Shown: positions 8,192 to 38,779 of the stretch, piece by piece | How the letters are laid out: the number at the start of each line of letters is the position of its first letter | Position numbering within the stretch: position 1 is the first letter of the stretch | From: Acidobacteria bacterium 13_1_20CM_3_53_8 | Lineage (GTDB): Bacteria; Acidobacteriota; Blastocatellia; Pyrinomonadales; Pyrinomonadaceae | Length of the DNA stretch: 61,916 nucleotides | Assembly: GCA_001920415.1 (NCBI GenBank) | Contig: MNJR01000027.1 | Coordinates: forward strand, 1 to 61,916 | Direction: 5' to 3' | Notes under the pieces: generated by a model | The model's input: the letters and a program-made list of their open reading frames with translations, nothing else | What the model was told of the DNA's origin: nothing | Databases searched by the model: none | Position numbers and translations under genes: made by a program

Positions 8192-9244
8192 ATGAAAACA
8201 AATTTTCTGTTGTACGGCGCGAACGGATACACGGGCGCACTCGTCGCACGCATCGCAGCCGAGCGCGGAATGAGACCGATTCTCGCAGGGCGGGATGCCG
8301 AAAAAGTCGGCGAGTTGGCCCAACAACTTGGATTCGAGCATCGCGTTTTTTCTCTTGATGACAAGACGGCCATTGACGCGGCGCTCGCAGACGTTGCAGT
8401 AGTGCTGCACTGCGCGGGGCCTTTCTCGCGCACGTCCAAATCTATGGCTGACGCTTGCATCAGAACGCGCACGCATTACCTGGACATCACGGGCGAGGCG
8501 GCTGTGTTCGAGGCGCTGCACGCGCGTAACGATGAAGCCAGAGAAGCGGGTGTGATGTTATTGCCGGGCGCTGGCTTCGACGTTGTTCCATCGGATTGCC
8601 TGGCCGCGCATCTCAAACGCCGCTTGCCTTCCGCCACTCATCTGGCGTTAGCCATTCGCGGCCTAACCAGAATCTCGCACGGCACAGCGACAACAATGGT
8701 CGAGAACATTCATCACGGAGGATTGGTTCGCCGCAATGGGAAACTGACTCCTGTGCCCGCAGCATGGAAGACGCGCGAGATTGATTACGGCGATGGCGCG
8801 CGGACGGCGGTCACGATTCCCTGGGGCGACGTGGTGACAGCCTACTACAGCACAGGGATTCCGAACATAGAAGTCTACAGCGCGCTTCCTTCGTCAATCC
8901 GTTTCATGATGAAGGCGAGCCGCATCTTCGGCTCTCTGTTAGCCTCAAGCGTTGTGCAGCGCTTTCTGAAGAAACGCATCAAGGCTCAGCCCGCAGGCCC
9001 AAGCGACGAAGAGCGCCGACGAGGCGCAAGCTTTCTGTGGGGAGAAGTCAAAGATGGCGCGGGCGGGTCTGCCACGTCAAGGCTACGCACGCCCGAAGGC
9101 TACACGCTGACGGCGCTCGCGGCGCTTGCGATTGTCGAAAAAGTGTTAGCGGGAGATTTTACTGCGGGCTATCAAACGCCATCGCTAGCCTACGGCGCAG
9201 ATTTCATATTGCAGATTGAAGGCGTCACGCGCGAAGACTTGTAA
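8192..9244 (+). CDS. saccharopine dehydrogenase-family NAD(P)-binding oxidoreductase
   Basis: 350 residues. The N-terminal Rossmann fold has the nucleotide-binding motif YGANGYTG (residues about 8-15) followed by LAGRDAEKV. It resembles the saccharopine dehydrogenase / trans-acting enoyl reductase group, soluble proteins that reduce or dehydrogenate diverse substrates with NAD(P). PGAGFDVVPSDCLA is typical of this group. The substrate cannot be told from sequence. It is a single gene converging on the aminotransferase. The ATG is taken from the alignment of the Rossmann motif; no strong ribosome-binding site is seen. Confidence 0.86.
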   Translation: MKTNFLLYGANGYTGALVARIAAERGMRPILAGRDAEKVGELAQQLGFEHRVFSLDDKTAIDAALADVAVVLHCAGPFSRTSKSMADACIRTRTHYLDITGEAAVFEALHARNDEAREAGVMLLPGAGFDVVPSDCLAAHLKRRLPSATHLALAIRGLTRISHGTATTMVENIHHGGLVRRNGKLTPVPAAWKTREIDYGDGARTAVTIPWGDVVTAYYSTGIPNIEVYSALPSSIRFMMKASRIFGSLLASSVVQRFLKKRIKAQPAGPSDEERRRGASFLWGEVKDGAGGSATSRLRTPEGYTLTALAALAIVEKVLAGDFTAGYQTPSLAYGADFILQIEGVTREDL

Positions 9245-32913: not shown

Positions 32914-33166
32914 ATCATCCTCCAAATTCTCGGACAATTCCGAAAACTTGGATGAGCGCAAGCGCACTTGACTGCCGCGCTCTTCGAGCTAAGAGCGGGC
33001 TGAAAAGGGCGAAATCCTTATGCGCGGTGCGTTGTCAAGGTCGTTTTAAGAATCGCATAGAATCACGGGAAGTAGAAGATTTAATGATAGCTTGCTTGGA
33101 ACATTGCTTGCTTGAAACGAAGCGCGGGTTGGAGTGTGCTCGTCTAGTGGAGAGGCTAATAGTCAA

Positions 33167-36079
33167 GTGAAATCTGTGCTGACAACCAGGACGTGGGTGC
33201 TGCTGATAGTGGCGGCGCTCTTCACGACTGCCGGTGCGCTCAACTTCGCTCAGCGCCTCAAGCACAAACCCCCGCCCTGGGACGGAGTCGAGTGGACTAC
33301 TACGCGCGCAGGAATAGTCGCCCGTTCAGTCGAGCAGGGTTCAGCAGGAGCACGCGCAGGAATAATTCCGGGCGACCGCCTCATAGCCGTTAGCGAAAAC
33401 GACTCGGATTATGAGCAGGTCATCTTAGATCATGACATACAGATTTATTTGGATGACGCGGGAGTTGGCGGACATCTCTCATATTTAATAGAGCGACCGT
33501 CGAACCCGGAAGGAATACGCGACCGCTACGCAGACCTTTACAACATAGGTGCTGTTGAGAACTGGACGCCGCGCGATTTTTACCTGAATGTAATCGGCCT
33601 GGTCTATCTACTCGTAGGCTTCTTCGTGCTCTTCAAACAGGGCGGACGCGCCCCCTTCGTACTACATTTTACGACGCTCTGTCTAGCGGCTTTCGTCTTC
33701 CATTTTTACAAGCCCGTAGGAACTTACAAAGACCTGGACGCGGCCATTGGCTTTATAAAGAACGCTGCATTCATTCTGTTTGCGCCGCTCTTCCTGCATT
33801 TCTGTGCGATCTATCCTACGCGCCAGCATCTTTTTAATGAACGGCGTTGGCGCGCGGTTGTGCTCTACGTCCCATCGCTCTTTCTTCTGGCATTCGCCGC
33901 GCTCGTCTATTTCGTGCCCGACTCTACATCGTTCCACTTGCCTGAGAGAACAGTCGGCTGGTTCTATCAAGGGAGCTTCATATATTTCACGCTCGCGCTC
34001 GTAGCAAGCGCTGCGCTACTGATTCGCACTTATGTGAAGAGCAAAGTTGCGGTCGTTCGCCAGCAATTGAAGTGGGTGGTGTGGGGTTCGGTTCTTGCCA
34101 TTGCGCCTTTCACTTTGCTCTACGGCGTGAGCTATATATTCGGGACTGAGAGCGAGCGCTGGCTGACGGACGCCTCAATCCTCCCGCTCATAATCATCCC
34201 ACTCGCTTTCGGCTACTCGGTCGTGCGCTACCGTCTGATGGACGTTGAGTTGGTCGTGCGCCGCGTCTCCGTCTACGCGCTCACGACGCTCGCCATCTCT
34301 GTTCTGGTTGGCGTAGTCGTTTACGTCGCGGGTCGTTACGCATTGGGCGTCTCGGTCGTGCCGGAAGAGATAACTCTGCCGGTCGTCATAACGGTTCTGG
34401 CGATGACTGTGGTCGTAATGATAGCCGCGCCCGTCAAACATTTTTTGCAGGAGCGTGTTGACCGCATCTTCTACGGCGAGCGGTACGACTTACGAAACGG
34501 CCTTCTTGATTTCGGTCGCACGCTTTCGGCCACGACTACGCTTGAGCCGCTCTTGAACGCGCTCGTCAGTCGCCTTCAGCAAGTTCTGGACGTAGAGCGC
34601 GTGGCGATTTTTATAGAAGATGCGCGAGAGCCTGCGGGCTATCGTGTCGCGCGGGTCGTGGGGCTGTCGCCGACTATGATAGTGCCGCCGGATTTCCGCG
34701 AGATGATACGCGTGCGATCTGCCGAAACAGGGATAGTGCGCGCGGATGATTTAGACCTTGTGCCTGAGACGGCTGCGTTCGTTCGCCGCGCGCTTCATTA
34801 CTACGTGCCGTGCGTGGTGCGCGGGCGCATGGTCGCTGTGATTGGTCTGGGACGCTCGGCAGACGGCGCGCTTCTATCCAGCGAAGACGTTGAAATCCTG
34901 CGCACCGTTTCAGGTTACGTCGCCGTCGCAATCGAGAACAGCCTGCTCTACCAGGAGCAGCATGAGCGCGCAGCAGAGCTTGAGCTTCTGAAGGAATTCA
35001 ACGAATCCATAGTCGAGTCAATCAACGTGGGGCTTCTGGCAGTTGATCTTGACGGGCGCGTGACGGCCTGCAACTCCGCGCTGGAAGATATGCTGGGCGT
35101 GCGCCGCGACGAAGCGGTCGGTGAAAAGGTCGAAGACCTCTTCGCGGAAGATTTCGCAGACACGCTGCATCAGGTGTTGGGCCAATCGGGTTGGCGCATT
35201 GAAGAAGCGCGCAGCATCTACAAGCTGCACACGGCCACGCGGCGCGAGCGCTCGCTCGTGCTGAACATAGCGATTGCGCCGCTTCGCCCTGACTCGAACG
35301 ACCGCACGGGCGCGCTAGTGGTTCTGGAAGACGTAACTTCTCGCGCGCGTCTTGAAGAGCAGTTGCAACAGCGCGAAAAACTCTCTTCAATCGGATTGCT
35401 CGCCGCAGGTGTTGCGCACGAAGTGAACACGCCGCTCACAGGAGTCTCTTCTTACACGCAGATGCTTCTGGGGATGATTCCCGAAACAGACCCTAAGCAC
35501 ATGCTGCTTGAAAAGGTGAAGCTACAATCGGAACGCGCCTCAGACATTGTGAACAACCTCTTGAACTTCTCGCGCACGGGCAGCGCTACGGAATTCACAG
35601 AGGTTGATCTTCATAGAGTGCTGGACGACACGCTTCAACTGCTTGAGCCGCAACTGCGGCGCAGTCAGATAGAGTTGGTGCGAGATTATGAAGAAGGCTT
35701 GCCAAAAGTTTTCGGCAACGCAGGAAAGCTCCAACAAGTCTTCACTAATCTCATCTTGAACGCGCGCGACGCTATCCCCGCAGGCGGTCGCATTACTCTA
35801 TCAATGCGCTCGAATATAGATGACGATTCAGTTACGATTGAGATAGCGGACACAGGCATAGGCATCGCGCCCGAAAACGTGGCGAAGATTTACGATCCAT
35901 TCTACACAACAAAAGGCATAGGTCGCGGCACAGGCTTAGGCTTGGCCGTCACCTACGGCATAGTGCAAGAGCACTCCGGCCACATCACAGTCGAGAGCAT
36001 GCCCGGCAAAGGCACAATCTTCCGCATCACTCTCCCCACCGCACACGCTCGCACAAGATTGCAAGCAGCGAGCGACTGA
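33167..36079 (+). CDS. PDZ, multi-TM, GAF, PAS sensor histidine kinase
   Basis: 970 residues from GTG at 33167, chosen because GGAGAGG lies about 9 nt upstream. Order: N-terminal TM, PDZ-like domain (about 35-110, including SAGARAGIIPGDRLIAV), about eight to ten hydrophobic segments (residues 135-425), GAF (about 455-600), PAS (about 615-720), HisKA with His751 in AHEVNTPLTG, and HATPase with N-box NLILNARDAI and GTGLGLAVTYGI. Membrane sensor likely to phosphorylate the sigma-54 regulator at 39116, which is on the same strand. Between them the DNA holds the cassette-like insertion and one further gene. The PDZ domain at the start of a kinase is unusual. Confidence 0.9.
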   Translation: MKSVLTTRTWVLLIVAALFTTAGALNFAQRLKHKPPPWDGVEWTTTRAGIVARSVEQGSAGARAGIIPGDRLIAVSENDSDYEQVILDHDIQIYLDDAGVGGHLSYLIERPSNPEGIRDRYADLYNIGAVENWTPRDFYLNVIGLVYLLVGFFVLFKQGGRAPFVLHFTTLCLAAFVFHFYKPVGTYKDLDAAIGFIKNAAFILFAPLFLHFCAIYPTRQHLFNERRWRAVVLYVPSLFLLAFAALVYFVPDSTSFHLPERTVGWFYQGSFIYFTLALVASAALLIRTYVKSKVAVVRQQLKWVVWGSVLAIAPFTLLYGVSYIFGTESERWLTDASILPLIIIPLAFGYSVVRYRLMDVELVVRRVSVYALTTLAISVLVGVVVYVAGRYALGVSVVPEEITLPVVITVLAMTVVVMIAAPVKHFLQERVDRIFYGERYDLRNGLLDFGRTLSATTTLEPLLNALVSRLQQVLDVERVAIFIEDAREPAGYRVARVVGLSPTMIVPPDFREMIRVRSAETGIVRADDLDLVPETAAFVRRALHYYVPCVVRGRMVAVIGLGRSADGALLSSEDVEILRTVSGYVAVAIENSLLYQEQHERAAELELLKEFNESIVESINVGLLAVDLDGRVTACNSALEDMLGVRRDEAVGEKVEDLFAEDFADTLHQVLGQSGWRIEEARSIYKLHTATRRERSLVLNIAIAPLRPDSNDRTGALVVLEDVTSRARLEEQLQQREKLSSIGLLAAGVAHEVNTPLTGVSSYTQMLLGMIPETDPKHMLLEKVKLQSERASDIVNNLLNFSRTGSATEFTEVDLHRVLDDTLQLLEPQLRRSQIELVRDYEEGLPKVFGNAGKLQQVFTNLILNARDAIPAGGRITLSMRSNIDDDSVTIEIADTGIGIAPENVAKIYDPFYTTKGIGRGTGLGLAVTYGIVQEHSGHITVESMPGKGTIFRITLPTAHARTRLQAASD

Positions 36080-36082
36080 TTA

Positions 36083-36122
36083 AGGTAAAAGTAAAAAGGT
36101 AAAAGGCAAAAGTAAGGACAAA
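36083..36122 (+). repeat. left half of a split AAAAGGC fold-back repeat
   Basis: Units GGTAAAA, GTAAAAA, GGTAAAA, GGCAAAA, then TAAGGACAAAG. It is a complete left arm with no inverse partner nearby. The partner is at 37572-37621 and starts with CTTTGTCC, complementary to the GGACAAAG here. It begins 3 nt after the kinase stop codon. Confidence 0.85.
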
Positions 36123-36143
36123 GGCATTTCTTTAGAATTGTTT

Positions 36144-36183
36144 GTCTAACGCTCGAATCCGCCCCGCGCATGAAGCCTTAGAT
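36144..36183 (-). other. attC-like recombination site after antitoxin-like cassette gene
   Basis: Read on the minus strand, a segment beginning ATCTAAGGCTTC ends with GGATTCGAGCGTTAGAC. The outer boxes ATCTAAG and GTTAGAC are imperfect inverse copies and GTTAGAC matches the integron core GTTRRRY. At about 40 nt it is shorter than usual attC sites. Position directly after the stop codon of the gene at 36198 is as expected for a cassette. Confidence 0.45.
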
Positions 36184-36197
36184 AAGCACTTCGTAGC

Positions 36198-36401
36198 TCA
36201 TTCACGCGCGCCTTCGATCTCTTTTATAGCTTGGGAAAAAGAGATAGCTTCATCACCAGATGATTTAGCCTCATCATAAGCACGGATGGATTCAAGCTCC
36301 TCTTGCGCTTCGAGCAATTCAAAATATCGCTCCACATCAAGCAATACTGCTGTGCGATTTCCGCTTTCATCCACGACAAACTGTTCTTTAGTCACGCTCA
36401 T
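36198..36401 (-). CDS. Phd/YefM-type antitoxin-like small protein
   Basis: 67 residues from ATG at 36401 with GGAGGTG 6 nt upstream. VTKEQFVVDESGNRTAVLLDVERYFELLEAQEELESI is the pattern of Phd/YefM-like antitoxins (short N-terminal strand, then helices, then an acidic flexible tail). No toxin gene lies next to it, which is common for cassette-borne antitoxins. Its base composition is lower in G+C than the flanks. It is the first gene of the cassette-like block, on the minus strand, opposite the kinase. Confidence 0.7.
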   Translation of the reverse strand: MSVTKEQFVVDESGNRTAVLLDVERYFELLEAQEELESIRAYDEAKSSGDEAISFSQAIKEIEGARE

Positions 36402-36467
36402 AAAAAGCACCTCCAAGCAGTAAGTTTATCCTCGAATTGAGATTACTACCAGCACTTAACTGGCGAA

Positions 36468-36575
36468 GTATAACGCCTGAATTCATCGCCGCGAGAGCAA
36501 TAATTCAACCCCCGCCGCAATCATGAATAATGAAAGGCTCGCAAGTCGAGCATCCGGTTGAATGAGTTGTTAGAC
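36468..36575 (-). other. attC-like recombination site after the membrane cassette gene
   Basis: Read on the minus strand, it starts GTCTAACAACTCATTCAACC and ends TGAATTCAGGCGTTATAC, with inverted boxes (GTCTAAC against GTTATAC, and ATTCA against TGAAT). Length of 108 nt is in the usual attC range. It lies directly downstream of the gene at 36608-37186. The internal part includes GGCTCGCAAGTCGAGC, a stem. Confidence 0.6.
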
Positions 36576-36607
36576 GCGGTATGGATGAGCATTCGGCTCA
36601 CTATTAT

Positions 36608-37186
36608 TCATCTCAAAAGCTTGTTGAGATTATTGGACAGTAACCAAACAGCTCTATCCCACACCATATTAGTCCATACTACAAGCTCGTTTGATGGCGG
36701 AACATACTGAGAGTGGATAGACCTTTCCTCAAATGGCCAGACTTTAGCAAATCGCTCTTGATGCTCCTTAATCCTTTTAATTACCTCTGCGAGGTCATAA
36801 TTCTCTGATAGCGACATCATTAACCTAACTATCTTATCAATCTCAAAAGTAAGTTGGTCATACCTTTGCCAGAATTCATCGGATTGAAGAAAGGCTTGAC
36901 TTTTTATCCTGACAGTAAATCTCTTGGTGAACATTCCCGCCCTTTTCTCATTGGCTGGCGAGGCTTTGTCGATTTCAAAATTACTATTTCGAATGTGACC
37001 ATAAATCACTGATATGATAGAGTTCAAATCGTTCCCAACCTCTTCAAGAAGTTGCAGTGACTTTTCTCGTATCTTGTCTTTTTTCGCTCTGCGCTCCGTG
37101 AGTCTAGTGAAAAGATAACTCCCTATTGTCAATGTCAGTAAGGTTAAGATAATAGGCTTACTGAGAAATGTTAAGACATATTCCAT
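36608..37186 (-). CDS. cassette-borne single-pass membrane protein of unknown function
   Basis: 192 residues. ATG with GAGGAA 5-6 nt upstream. Residues 7-27 (FLSKPIILTLLTLTIGSYLF) form one transmembrane segment, followed by TRLTERRAKKDKIREKSLQL, a positively charged amphipathic stretch, and then a helix-rich soluble domain. The gene is rich in A+T compared with neighbours. Not a family I can name; similar small membrane proteins occur in integron cassettes in my memory, which is weak support. An attC-like site follows its stop, and another cassette precedes it. Confidence 0.72.
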   Translation of the reverse strand: MEYVLTFLSKPIILTLLTLTIGSYLFTRLTERRAKKDKIREKSLQLLEEVGNDLNSIISVIYGHIRNSNFEIDKASPANEKRAGMFTKRFTVRIKSQAFLQSDEFWQRYDQLTFEIDKIVRLMMSLSENYDLAEVIKRIKEHQERFAKVWPFEERSIHSQYVPPSNELVVWTNMVWDRAVWLLSNNLNKLLR

Positions 37187-37223
37187 AATCGTTCCTCACG
37201 AAGATTGTAGTTTAGGAATTAGC

Positions 37224-37246
37224 GTCTAACGCCTTATTAGGCGTCC
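37224..37246 (-). other. attC remnant after DUF2442 cassette gene
   Basis: The minus strand has ACGCCTAATAAGGCGTTAGAC: a GCCTAAT / GTTAGAC pair with an AAGGCG core. It is much shorter than a full attC, so it is at best a partial or deleted site. It sits after the stop codon of the gene at 37257 and before the next gene start, as a cassette boundary would. Confidence 0.35.
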
Positions 37247-37256
37247 TTGTCCGTAA

Positions 37257-37508
37257 CTACGCGAAGCTTGATTCGCTAATAACAACGCTCTCTAAATATA
37301 AAGTTTCCGGGCTGATGTTTTGCTCGTTGGGCCATTGCACAGTTCCGAATGCCACCTTAACTTTTTTGAAAAAGTTTATATCCTTTAGCTCTGTGAAAAT
37401 CCCATGCTCAAGGTAAGGTGTCATATAGAATCTTCTAACACTGCCGTCGTCAAACTTCAGGTCGAGTGAGAAGTCATCGTTAGCCGTTGCTGCTACGGCT
37501 TTGGTCAT
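37257..37508 (-). CDS. DUF2442-domain protein
   Basis: 83 residues, ATG with AGGATT upstream. LDLKFDDGSVRRFYMTPYLEHGIFTELKDINFFKKVKVAFGTVQWPNEQNISPETLYLES matches the DUF2442 pattern closely (a short beta-rich domain with a conserved WPN...ISPETLY segment). Function unknown; DUF2442 genes are often found near toxin-antitoxin pairs, mobile elements and integrons. AT-rich. The first gene of the cassette block in the direction of transcription. Confidence 0.82.
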   Translation of the reverse strand: MTKAVAATANDDFSLDLKFDDGSVRRFYMTPYLEHGIFTELKDINFFKKVKVAFGTVQWPNEQNISPETLYLESVVISESSFA

Positions 37509-37571
37509 AAATAATCCTAAAACATGGATATGACAGGCATCCTCTTCTTCCTTTCAATTCGGATTATATCA

Positions 37572-37621
37572 CTTTGTCCGTGCATCTAACTTTTGCCTTT
37601 TTACTTTTACCTTTTGCCTTC
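37572..37621 (+). repeat. right half of a split AAAAGGC fold-back repeat
   Basis: Reads CTTTGTCC, then TTTTGCC, TTTTTAC, TTTTACC, TTTTGCC: the inverse of the left half at 36083-36122, extending with the 8-bp GGACAAAG/CTTTGTCC match. The two halves are 1.45 kb apart with three genes between. Confidence 0.85.
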
Positions 37622-37684: not shown

Positions 37685-38686
37685 GTGCGTAAGCGAATCA
37701 GCATCTTGCTTGTCACAAGCGTCTTTTTATGCGTAGCGAGCTTGTGTGTGGTTGACGTTAATCGCGTTCGCGCGAAGAGAATTGCGCCCGTTGCTCAACA
37801 GGGCGCGAGCGAGCGCGTTACGATTACTATGCGCTCTCTTGTTCCCGGCGCTTCGGGTACGCTTCTTCTCCGTGCGCGCAGCCGTCAGGTGAGACTTTCT
37901 ACGCATGGACTCACACGCCCCGAATCGCTTGACCCGCGCGCGCGCGTCTTTATGGTCTGGGCCGTTGGCGCGGATGGTCGGATCCTAAAGCTCGGACAAT
38001 TGAAGACGGATGCACAGGGCGGCGCGCTCGCGTTCACAGTTCAACCGGCGCTTGAGCCTTACAGCGTTATCGTGACAGCAGAACAGAACGCGCTCGCCCT
38101 CAGACCGTCGGGCGTGCCTGTTCTTTCGACGCGCGCGCGCGAGGTCTCAACGCCACAGCCTCTCAGCACAAACGATGAAGCAAGGCAAGGGCATGAGCGT
38201 TCGGTCAACGACGTGCGAGCTACACGCACAAGCGCTCACGTTCCCACAACCGATTTCTATTCGATTGTAGACGCTGCGCTCGGCTCAGGCCGCACGCTAT
38301 TTCTGACAGGCGCGCCCATGTTGCCGAGAGCGCGCGGCGTTGCACACGTTGCTGTTATCGGTGGAACAGCATTCGTCCGAGCGCGTCTGGCAAATCTGCC
38401 TGCGCCTTCCGCTCTTGGCGCGAGCGAATACGTTTTGTGGGGTCGCTTGCGCGATGGTCGCGCCATTTACATGGGAAGCCTTCCGGCGCGCAGCCTAAAC
38501 GGCAGTGACATTTACGTTCGCCTGAACAACGCAGGCTTCGATGACTTCAATCTGTTCGTGACTGCGGAAAAGACGCGCCCAGCAATATTTCCTTCTAACC
38601 GCCGCGTGCTCGTCACACGCGAATCCACACGACGCACGCGACGACCGCACCGCAGACGTAGAAGGCGCAGGCACGTGAGCGCCTGA
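37685..38686 (+). CDS. exported protein with two RskA-like domains and an arginine-rich tail
   Basis: 333 residues, GTG start with AAGGAG 10 nt upstream. Signal peptide (SILLVTSVFLCVASLCVV). Two similar domains: one with RVFMVWAVGADGRILKLG and one with SEYVLWGRLRDGRAIYMG. The Y-x-L-W-x-x-x-x-G-x-x-x-x-x-G pattern resembles the C-terminal periplasmic domain of anti-sigma-K (RskA) proteins, here without the N-terminal anti-sigma domain. The final 20 residues are nearly all Arg and His, a very basic tail not seen in the family. Located between the kinase and its likely regulator. Confidence 0.75.
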   Translation: MRKRISILLVTSVFLCVASLCVVDVNRVRAKRIAPVAQQGASERVTITMRSLVPGASGTLLLRARSRQVRLSTHGLTRPESLDPRARVFMVWAVGADGRILKLGQLKTDAQGGALAFTVQPALEPYSVIVTAEQNALALRPSGVPVLSTRAREVSTPQPLSTNDEARQGHERSVNDVRATRTSAHVPTTDFYSIVDAALGSGRTLFLTGAPMLPRARGVAHVAVIGGTAFVRARLANLPAPSALGASEYVLWGRLRDGRAIYMGSLPARSLNGSDIYVRLNNAGFDDFNLFVTAEKTRPAIFPSNRRVLVTRESTRRTRRPHRRRRRRRHVSA

Positions 38687-38713: not shown

Positions 38714-38779
38714 GAACGAGTGAAAGATTTCAAATTTCAAATCTGAGATTACAAATCTGAAATCTTTCACTCGTTTTTC
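38714..38779. repeat. fold-back repeat, AAATTTC family with T-tract
   Basis: A stem of about 25 bp: ACGAGTGAAAGATTTC and its inverse enclose a short AAATTTC/AAATCTG array. It ends in CGTTTTTC, so it also has the form of an intrinsic terminator for the RskA-like gene. Distinct from others in having a T-tract. Confidence 0.85.

Follow-up and report, generated by a model that had tools for sequence, protein, structure and literature searches.

Cassettes of sedentary chromosomal integrons, and likewise those of CALIN arrays (two or more neighbouring attC sites and no intI), are small genes with an attC behind them (R'' RYYYAAC, L boxes and R' GTTRRRY) and share one orientation. Insertion of cassettes outside integrons has mostly been studied experimentally, with the integrases of mobile integrons. 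Its occurrence at secondary sites, of the type called attG, is already known (Francia 1993 and Loot 2024, as related in PMC10127599, PMC11023631 and PMC12901181); it takes place at one GTT core that belongs to neither attI nor attC, and the exit side keeps the TTRRRY of the target. The extended core of the integrase is given as GTTRRRY in PMC10127599. A different kind of element, the fold-back or MITE-like intergenic repeat, has long inverted arms, hundreds of dispersed copies and no coding capacity.

The locus described here combines features of all three. It lies in a window of 61,916 nucleotides, the whole stretch of DNA that was analysed, which lies on contig C9 of the draft genome of an uncultured acidobacterium (6.1 Mb, 155 contigs, 95.9% complete). 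Judged by the relatives of a kinase encoded in the window, the organism belongs to Pyrinomonadaceae, Acidobacteriota, or close to them. Compared with the secondary-site insertions described so far, this would be a natural chromosomal event in an uncultured organism, situated in a repeat, with decayed attC sites and with no integrase found. In contrast to sedentary integrons and CALIN arrays, the block is short and isolated and contains only one complete attC; set against the CALIN definition, its content amounts to one complete site and two remnants. Cassette insertion outside integrons is not new in itself, but the locus probably represents a natural example from an uncultured lineage, with good documentation.

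Layout of the locus and its cargo

A histidine kinase gene with GAF, PAS, HisKA and HATPase domains (Pfam) occupies positions 33134–36079 on the plus strand and has orthologues in 40 of 40 relatives. Three to four base pairs past its stop codon begins a fold-back repeat that is split in two. The left part (36083–36149), delimited by the repeat family and the restored stem, includes the loop and TTTGTCTAA of the right arm; the rest of the right arm (37590–37621), delimited by arm pairing and junction tests, is followed by the next gene, which starts at 37685. Between the two parts lies an inserted block of 1,440 bp (36150–37589, minus strand), made of three co-oriented cassettes, with G^TTAG (minus strand) at either end. 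The extent of the block relies on direct reading of the sequence, on junction tests and on its absence from 44 relatives. Its genes and its attC share one orientation.

Cassette 1 (37230–37589, minus strand, 360 bp, bounds G^TTAGATGC and G^TTAGACGC) carries the gene of an 83-aa DUF2442 protein (37257–37508, minus strand; Pfam E 4.5e-13), with a weak likeness to the antitoxin DhiA that scores 23.8 bits in NCBIfam, far below the cut-off. Cassette 2 (36474–37229, minus strand, 756 bp, bounds G^TTAGACGC and G^TTATACTTC) encodes a 192-aa protein of membrane type, with a hydrophobic N-terminus and no assigned function (36608–37186, minus strand; no Pfam family above cut-off). This protein is rare: among the 161 further genomes of the class that were searched, one has a homologue, and the gene of this sole homologue does not adjoin an attC. 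Cassette 3 (36150–36473, minus strand, 324 bp, bounds G^TTATACTTC and G^TTAGACAAA) encodes a 72-aa RelB/Phd-like antitoxin (36198–36416, minus strand), whose match to the RelB-like Pfam family (E 1.4e-5) is slightly below the curated cut-off and which has no toxin gene adjoining. The three minus-strand genes that the initial annotation had read from the sequence are all retained. None of their products has a match in PADLOC. In a promoter scan, the leader of the first cassette has no promoter-like site, and the region as a whole has about as many sites as shuffled sequence would. A DUF2442 protein with weak likeness to DhiA, a RelB/Phd-like protein and a rare 192-aa protein are the kind of cargo that cassettes carry.

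Attachment sites and integrases

DNA similarity first tied positions 36470–36572 to repeated sites with the spacing of cassettes on other contigs, and these sites have the classical attC form (e.g. CCTAACAACTCATTCAACCGGAGCG...CCGGTTAATTCGAGCGTTAGGC). A covariance model was built from 44 attC sites elsewhere in the same genome, with the window left out; its structure, set by hand with paired R boxes, replaced an RNAalifold structure of 9 pairs. With this model, positions 36468–36575 of the minus strand are a complete attC (R'' GTCTAAC ... R' GTTATAC) of 59.8 bits and E 4.6e-14 (65 bits with nhmmer). Its L arm is partly decayed, and four of the 16 model pairs in its stem are non-standard. The site is of the same family as those of the arrays on contigs C60, C61 and C103; in Rfam, no family covers the array or the block.

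The sites behind the other two genes, both on the minus strand, are at noise level as whole attC sites, with 6.8 bits at 37224–37242 and 6.3 bits at 36144–36183, but they keep the R boxes or the cores of these. The former reads GCCTAAT-AAG-GC-GTTAGAC, with R boxes that are nearly fused. The latter reads ATCTAA...ATTCGAGCGTTAGAC and has an exact ATTCGAGCGTTAG half; its final TTAGAC is that of the target repeat. Within the whole window the 9-mer GCGTTAGAC is found only at these two sites, for an expectation of about 0.5. Both look like remnants left by deletions in attC sites. The original view, that each gene is followed by a site with a GTTAGAC or GTTATAC core and inverse boxes, is therefore upheld for cassette 2, the only one with R'', L boxes and R' behind its gene, and is reduced to remnants for cassettes 1 and 3.

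In the genome as a whole, the model finds 111 attC sites at E <= 0.001, with arrays on contigs C60, C61, C103, C111, C24, C149 and C152, many of them cut by contig ends. Sites of the same type are present in 22 of 25 genomes of the family, the exceptions being G008, G016 and G020. Integron integrase genes (TIGR02249) are present in 21 of 40 relatives, and in two cases (G012:C248 and G017:C102) attC sites lie within about 1–8 kb of an integrase gene over the cut-off, the first of them 1–2 kb away at most. The window had been described as free of integrase, and indeed its whole contig bears no trace of one (TIGR02249). The search for intI, extended to the entire draft genome, likewise gives nothing over the TIGR02249 cut-off of 265, the best score being 81.9 bits. 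The integrase of this genome may have been lost or may be absent from the assembly; the absence of intI is not proven, given a draft completeness of 95.9% and the many arrays that are cut off where a contig stops.

The repeat, its restoration and its counterpart in a relative

The genome contains the 12-mer AAAAGGCAAAAG of the repeat arm 342 times in forward and 333 times in reverse orientation, whereas the reversed control gives 1 + 1, and thus the fold-back family is far above chance. Its dispersed copies with inverted arms are those of a fold-back or MITE-like repeat. By a rough estimate (about 330 copies of about 100 bp), these repeats make up ~0.5% of the genome and a larger share of its intergenic DNA. 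The arms normally pair at close range, within about 110 bp. Only one +/- pair of arms in the window is distant, namely the left arm that starts at 36083 with the right arm at 37590–37621, as expected from the claim of a split fold-back, and further copies of the repeat lie nearby within the window. A second fold-back, of the GATTTCAAATTTCAAATCTGAGATTACAAATCTGAAATC type and from a family that differs from the AAAAGGC repeat, occupies an intergenic position at 38725–38775.

On the minus strand, the entry side of the block reads AAAAGGCAAAAG^TTAGATGCAC and the exit side GAGCG^TTAGACAAAC, with both block ends at G^TTAG, i.e. between the G and the TT of the core. Joining the flanks at their shared CTAAC yields a hairpin of 99 nt, a size normal for the family, with a stem that runs through the junction and a DNA fold of -25.5 kcal/mol. 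The arms would hence once have formed one hairpin, as had been proposed, and the restored repeat contains GTTAGAC, a core of the GTTRRRY type. Among 5,280 joins ranked by likeness to 48 intact copies, the best is one base from the predicted join, because the family consensus is GTCCTAAC where GTCTAAC is found here. The predicted join itself comes 20th of the 5,280, and some shorter joins that share its right boundary score equally high; the right boundary is therefore firm, and the left one is placed by means of the core and the restored stem. The fold energy of the joined flanks was dropped as a junction locator, since longer joins fold better anyway.

One detail of the initial annotation is not sustained. 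The 8-bp match said to extend the right arm, CTTTGTCC at 37571–37578, is present, yet it is cassette sequence under the junction model, and the stem partner of GGACAAA is TTTGTC at 36141–36146, left of the insertion. Cassette 1 begins with TTAGATGCACGGACAAAG; its 8-mer GGACAAAG, next to the right junction on the cassette side, is shared with the repeat arm. Two stretches of cassette 1 resemble the GGACAAAG of the arm, namely GGACAAAG itself at 37571–37578, near the start of the cassette, and GGACAAGG at 37241–37252 (minus strand), near its end. Under the junction model GGACAAAG belongs to the cassette; its likeness to the arm, for which that model does not account, counts against the best reading of the locus.

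An uninterrupted hairpin behind the kinase had been anticipated in relatives, and one is found in Acidobacteria bacterium gp4 AA20 (G012, locus L168), which belongs to the same family but to another genus. There, an unbroken AAGGCAAAAGTAAAAAGGTAAAAGGCAAAAGGGAAGATAAGAGATTCGCTCTTTCTAACTTTTGCCTTTTTCCTTTTACCTTTTGCCTT stands 3–4 bp past the kinase stop codon and carries the same TCTAACTTTTGCC, likewise unbroken, in the same place as the copy of the window. Whether inherited or an independent copy, this repeat shows the form of the site before insertion, and it provides the unoccupied counterpart of the filled site. No attC occurs behind the kinase in the 44 relatives that are readable past its stop codon. 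Without the block, the gap in the window would measure 165 bp, compared with about 139–194 bp in relatives with the same adjoining next gene. In other relatives the place is held by other fold-back families, a difference from ordinary fold-back or MITE-like repeats: fold-backs of unrelated sequence (GGGGTTAGGGG, GGGGAAAGGGG, GATTTGAAATC, ATGAGTGATGAG and GTCAGAGGTCAG types) lie directly past the kinase stop codon at loci L166, L171, L173, L176, L182, L195, L198, L199 and L212. The short terminator-like spot behind the kinase looks like one that unrelated repeat families settle, or take over, again and again.

Probable mode of entry of the cassettes

With a genuine attC in the block, G^TTAG at both of its ends, flanks that join into a normal repeat and an unbroken repeat in a relative, the best explanation, with a probability of about 0.85, is that an integron integrase inserted the cassettes at a secondary, attG-type core, G^TTAGAC, of a pre-existing fold-back repeat behind the kinase. 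Assignment to the attG type is based on the GTTRRRY core and on the unoccupied site in the relative. The repeat would have stood behind the kinase gene before the cassettes arrived, and the target would have been the single core G^TTAGAC, a GTTRRRY sequence, in its right arm. The agent, presumably an integron integrase, would have joined the attC of a cassette to this single chromosomal core and thereby split the repeat, so that the entry side carries AAAAG and the exit side TTAGAC.... The three cassettes may have come as one string or one by one, and later decay of all three attC sites would have fixed the genes in place.

The abundance of the repeat, with about 675 exact arm 12-mers in the genome and more copies nearby in the window, could also suggest that two separate copies flank the block, or that it entered via homologous recombination between repeats. 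Such an origin is improbable, as the two halves complete each other (the left one contains the left arm, the loop and TTTGTC, the right one only the outer right arm), both end in CTAAC at the block, and a single intact copy stands here in G012/L168. Entry at the hairpin as a secondary site, as put forward in the initial annotation, is supported by the attC match, the junctions, and the restored and unbroken repeats. The accompanying idea, that the extruded hairpin served the integrase as a folded, attC-like single-strand substrate, fares poorly: integrases do act on folded single strands, and the restored repeat does fold into a strong hairpin (-25.5 kcal/mol) with the core in its stem, but the boxes of the repeat, GTTAG...CTAAC, are inside-out relative to the RYYYAAC...GTTRRRY of attC on both strands. 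Moreover, a hairpin is split at one of the 19 isolated cassette loci tested, i.e. this one, with a score of 21, whereas the 18 others, with scores of 8–12, split none. Because the repeats occupy ~0.5% of the genome and more of its intergenic DNA, one repeat insertion among about 20 needs, by rough estimate, no preference for them; a substrate role of the hairpin has little to commend it.

The block might finally be what is left of a small integron that formerly stood in this place with an integrase and attI of its own. Its three cassettes do lie in one orientation, and antitoxin genes are common in sedentary integrons, yet such an ancestry is very hard to credit on a contig with no trace of an integrase, where the entry side consists of a repeat arm and then the conserved neighbour gene, and where relatives have no integron in the same place, G012 having the empty repeat there.

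Insertion at the G^TTAGAC core of the repeat would make the locus a natural chromosomal case in which the filled site can be set beside an unbroken one in a relative. About 20 further isolated loci (L121–L154), with one or two attC sites each, lie inside contigs and away from arrays, on C1, C2, C5, C14, C16, C21, C24, C25, C49, C95, C97, C100, C110, C111 and C136; they are a widely scattered cassette population in one genome, on which one could measure how targets are chosen in nature and how attC decays once a cassette is inserted. At 19 isolated loci, cassettes were tested for a general association with split hairpins, and none was found. It is an unlikely, speculative extension that the lineage scatters cassettes routinely, that fold-backs with GTTAG cores are landing sites and that integron and repeats together reshape intergenic regions; the idea of scatter refers to a single genome with roughly 111 attC sites and some 20 isolated loci. 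Among the arrays, the long one at L030 (C60:155000-174000) has its first attC at 8676 and an entry end without an integrase gene, and its upstream neighbours are glycosyltransferases and a large repeat-domain protein.
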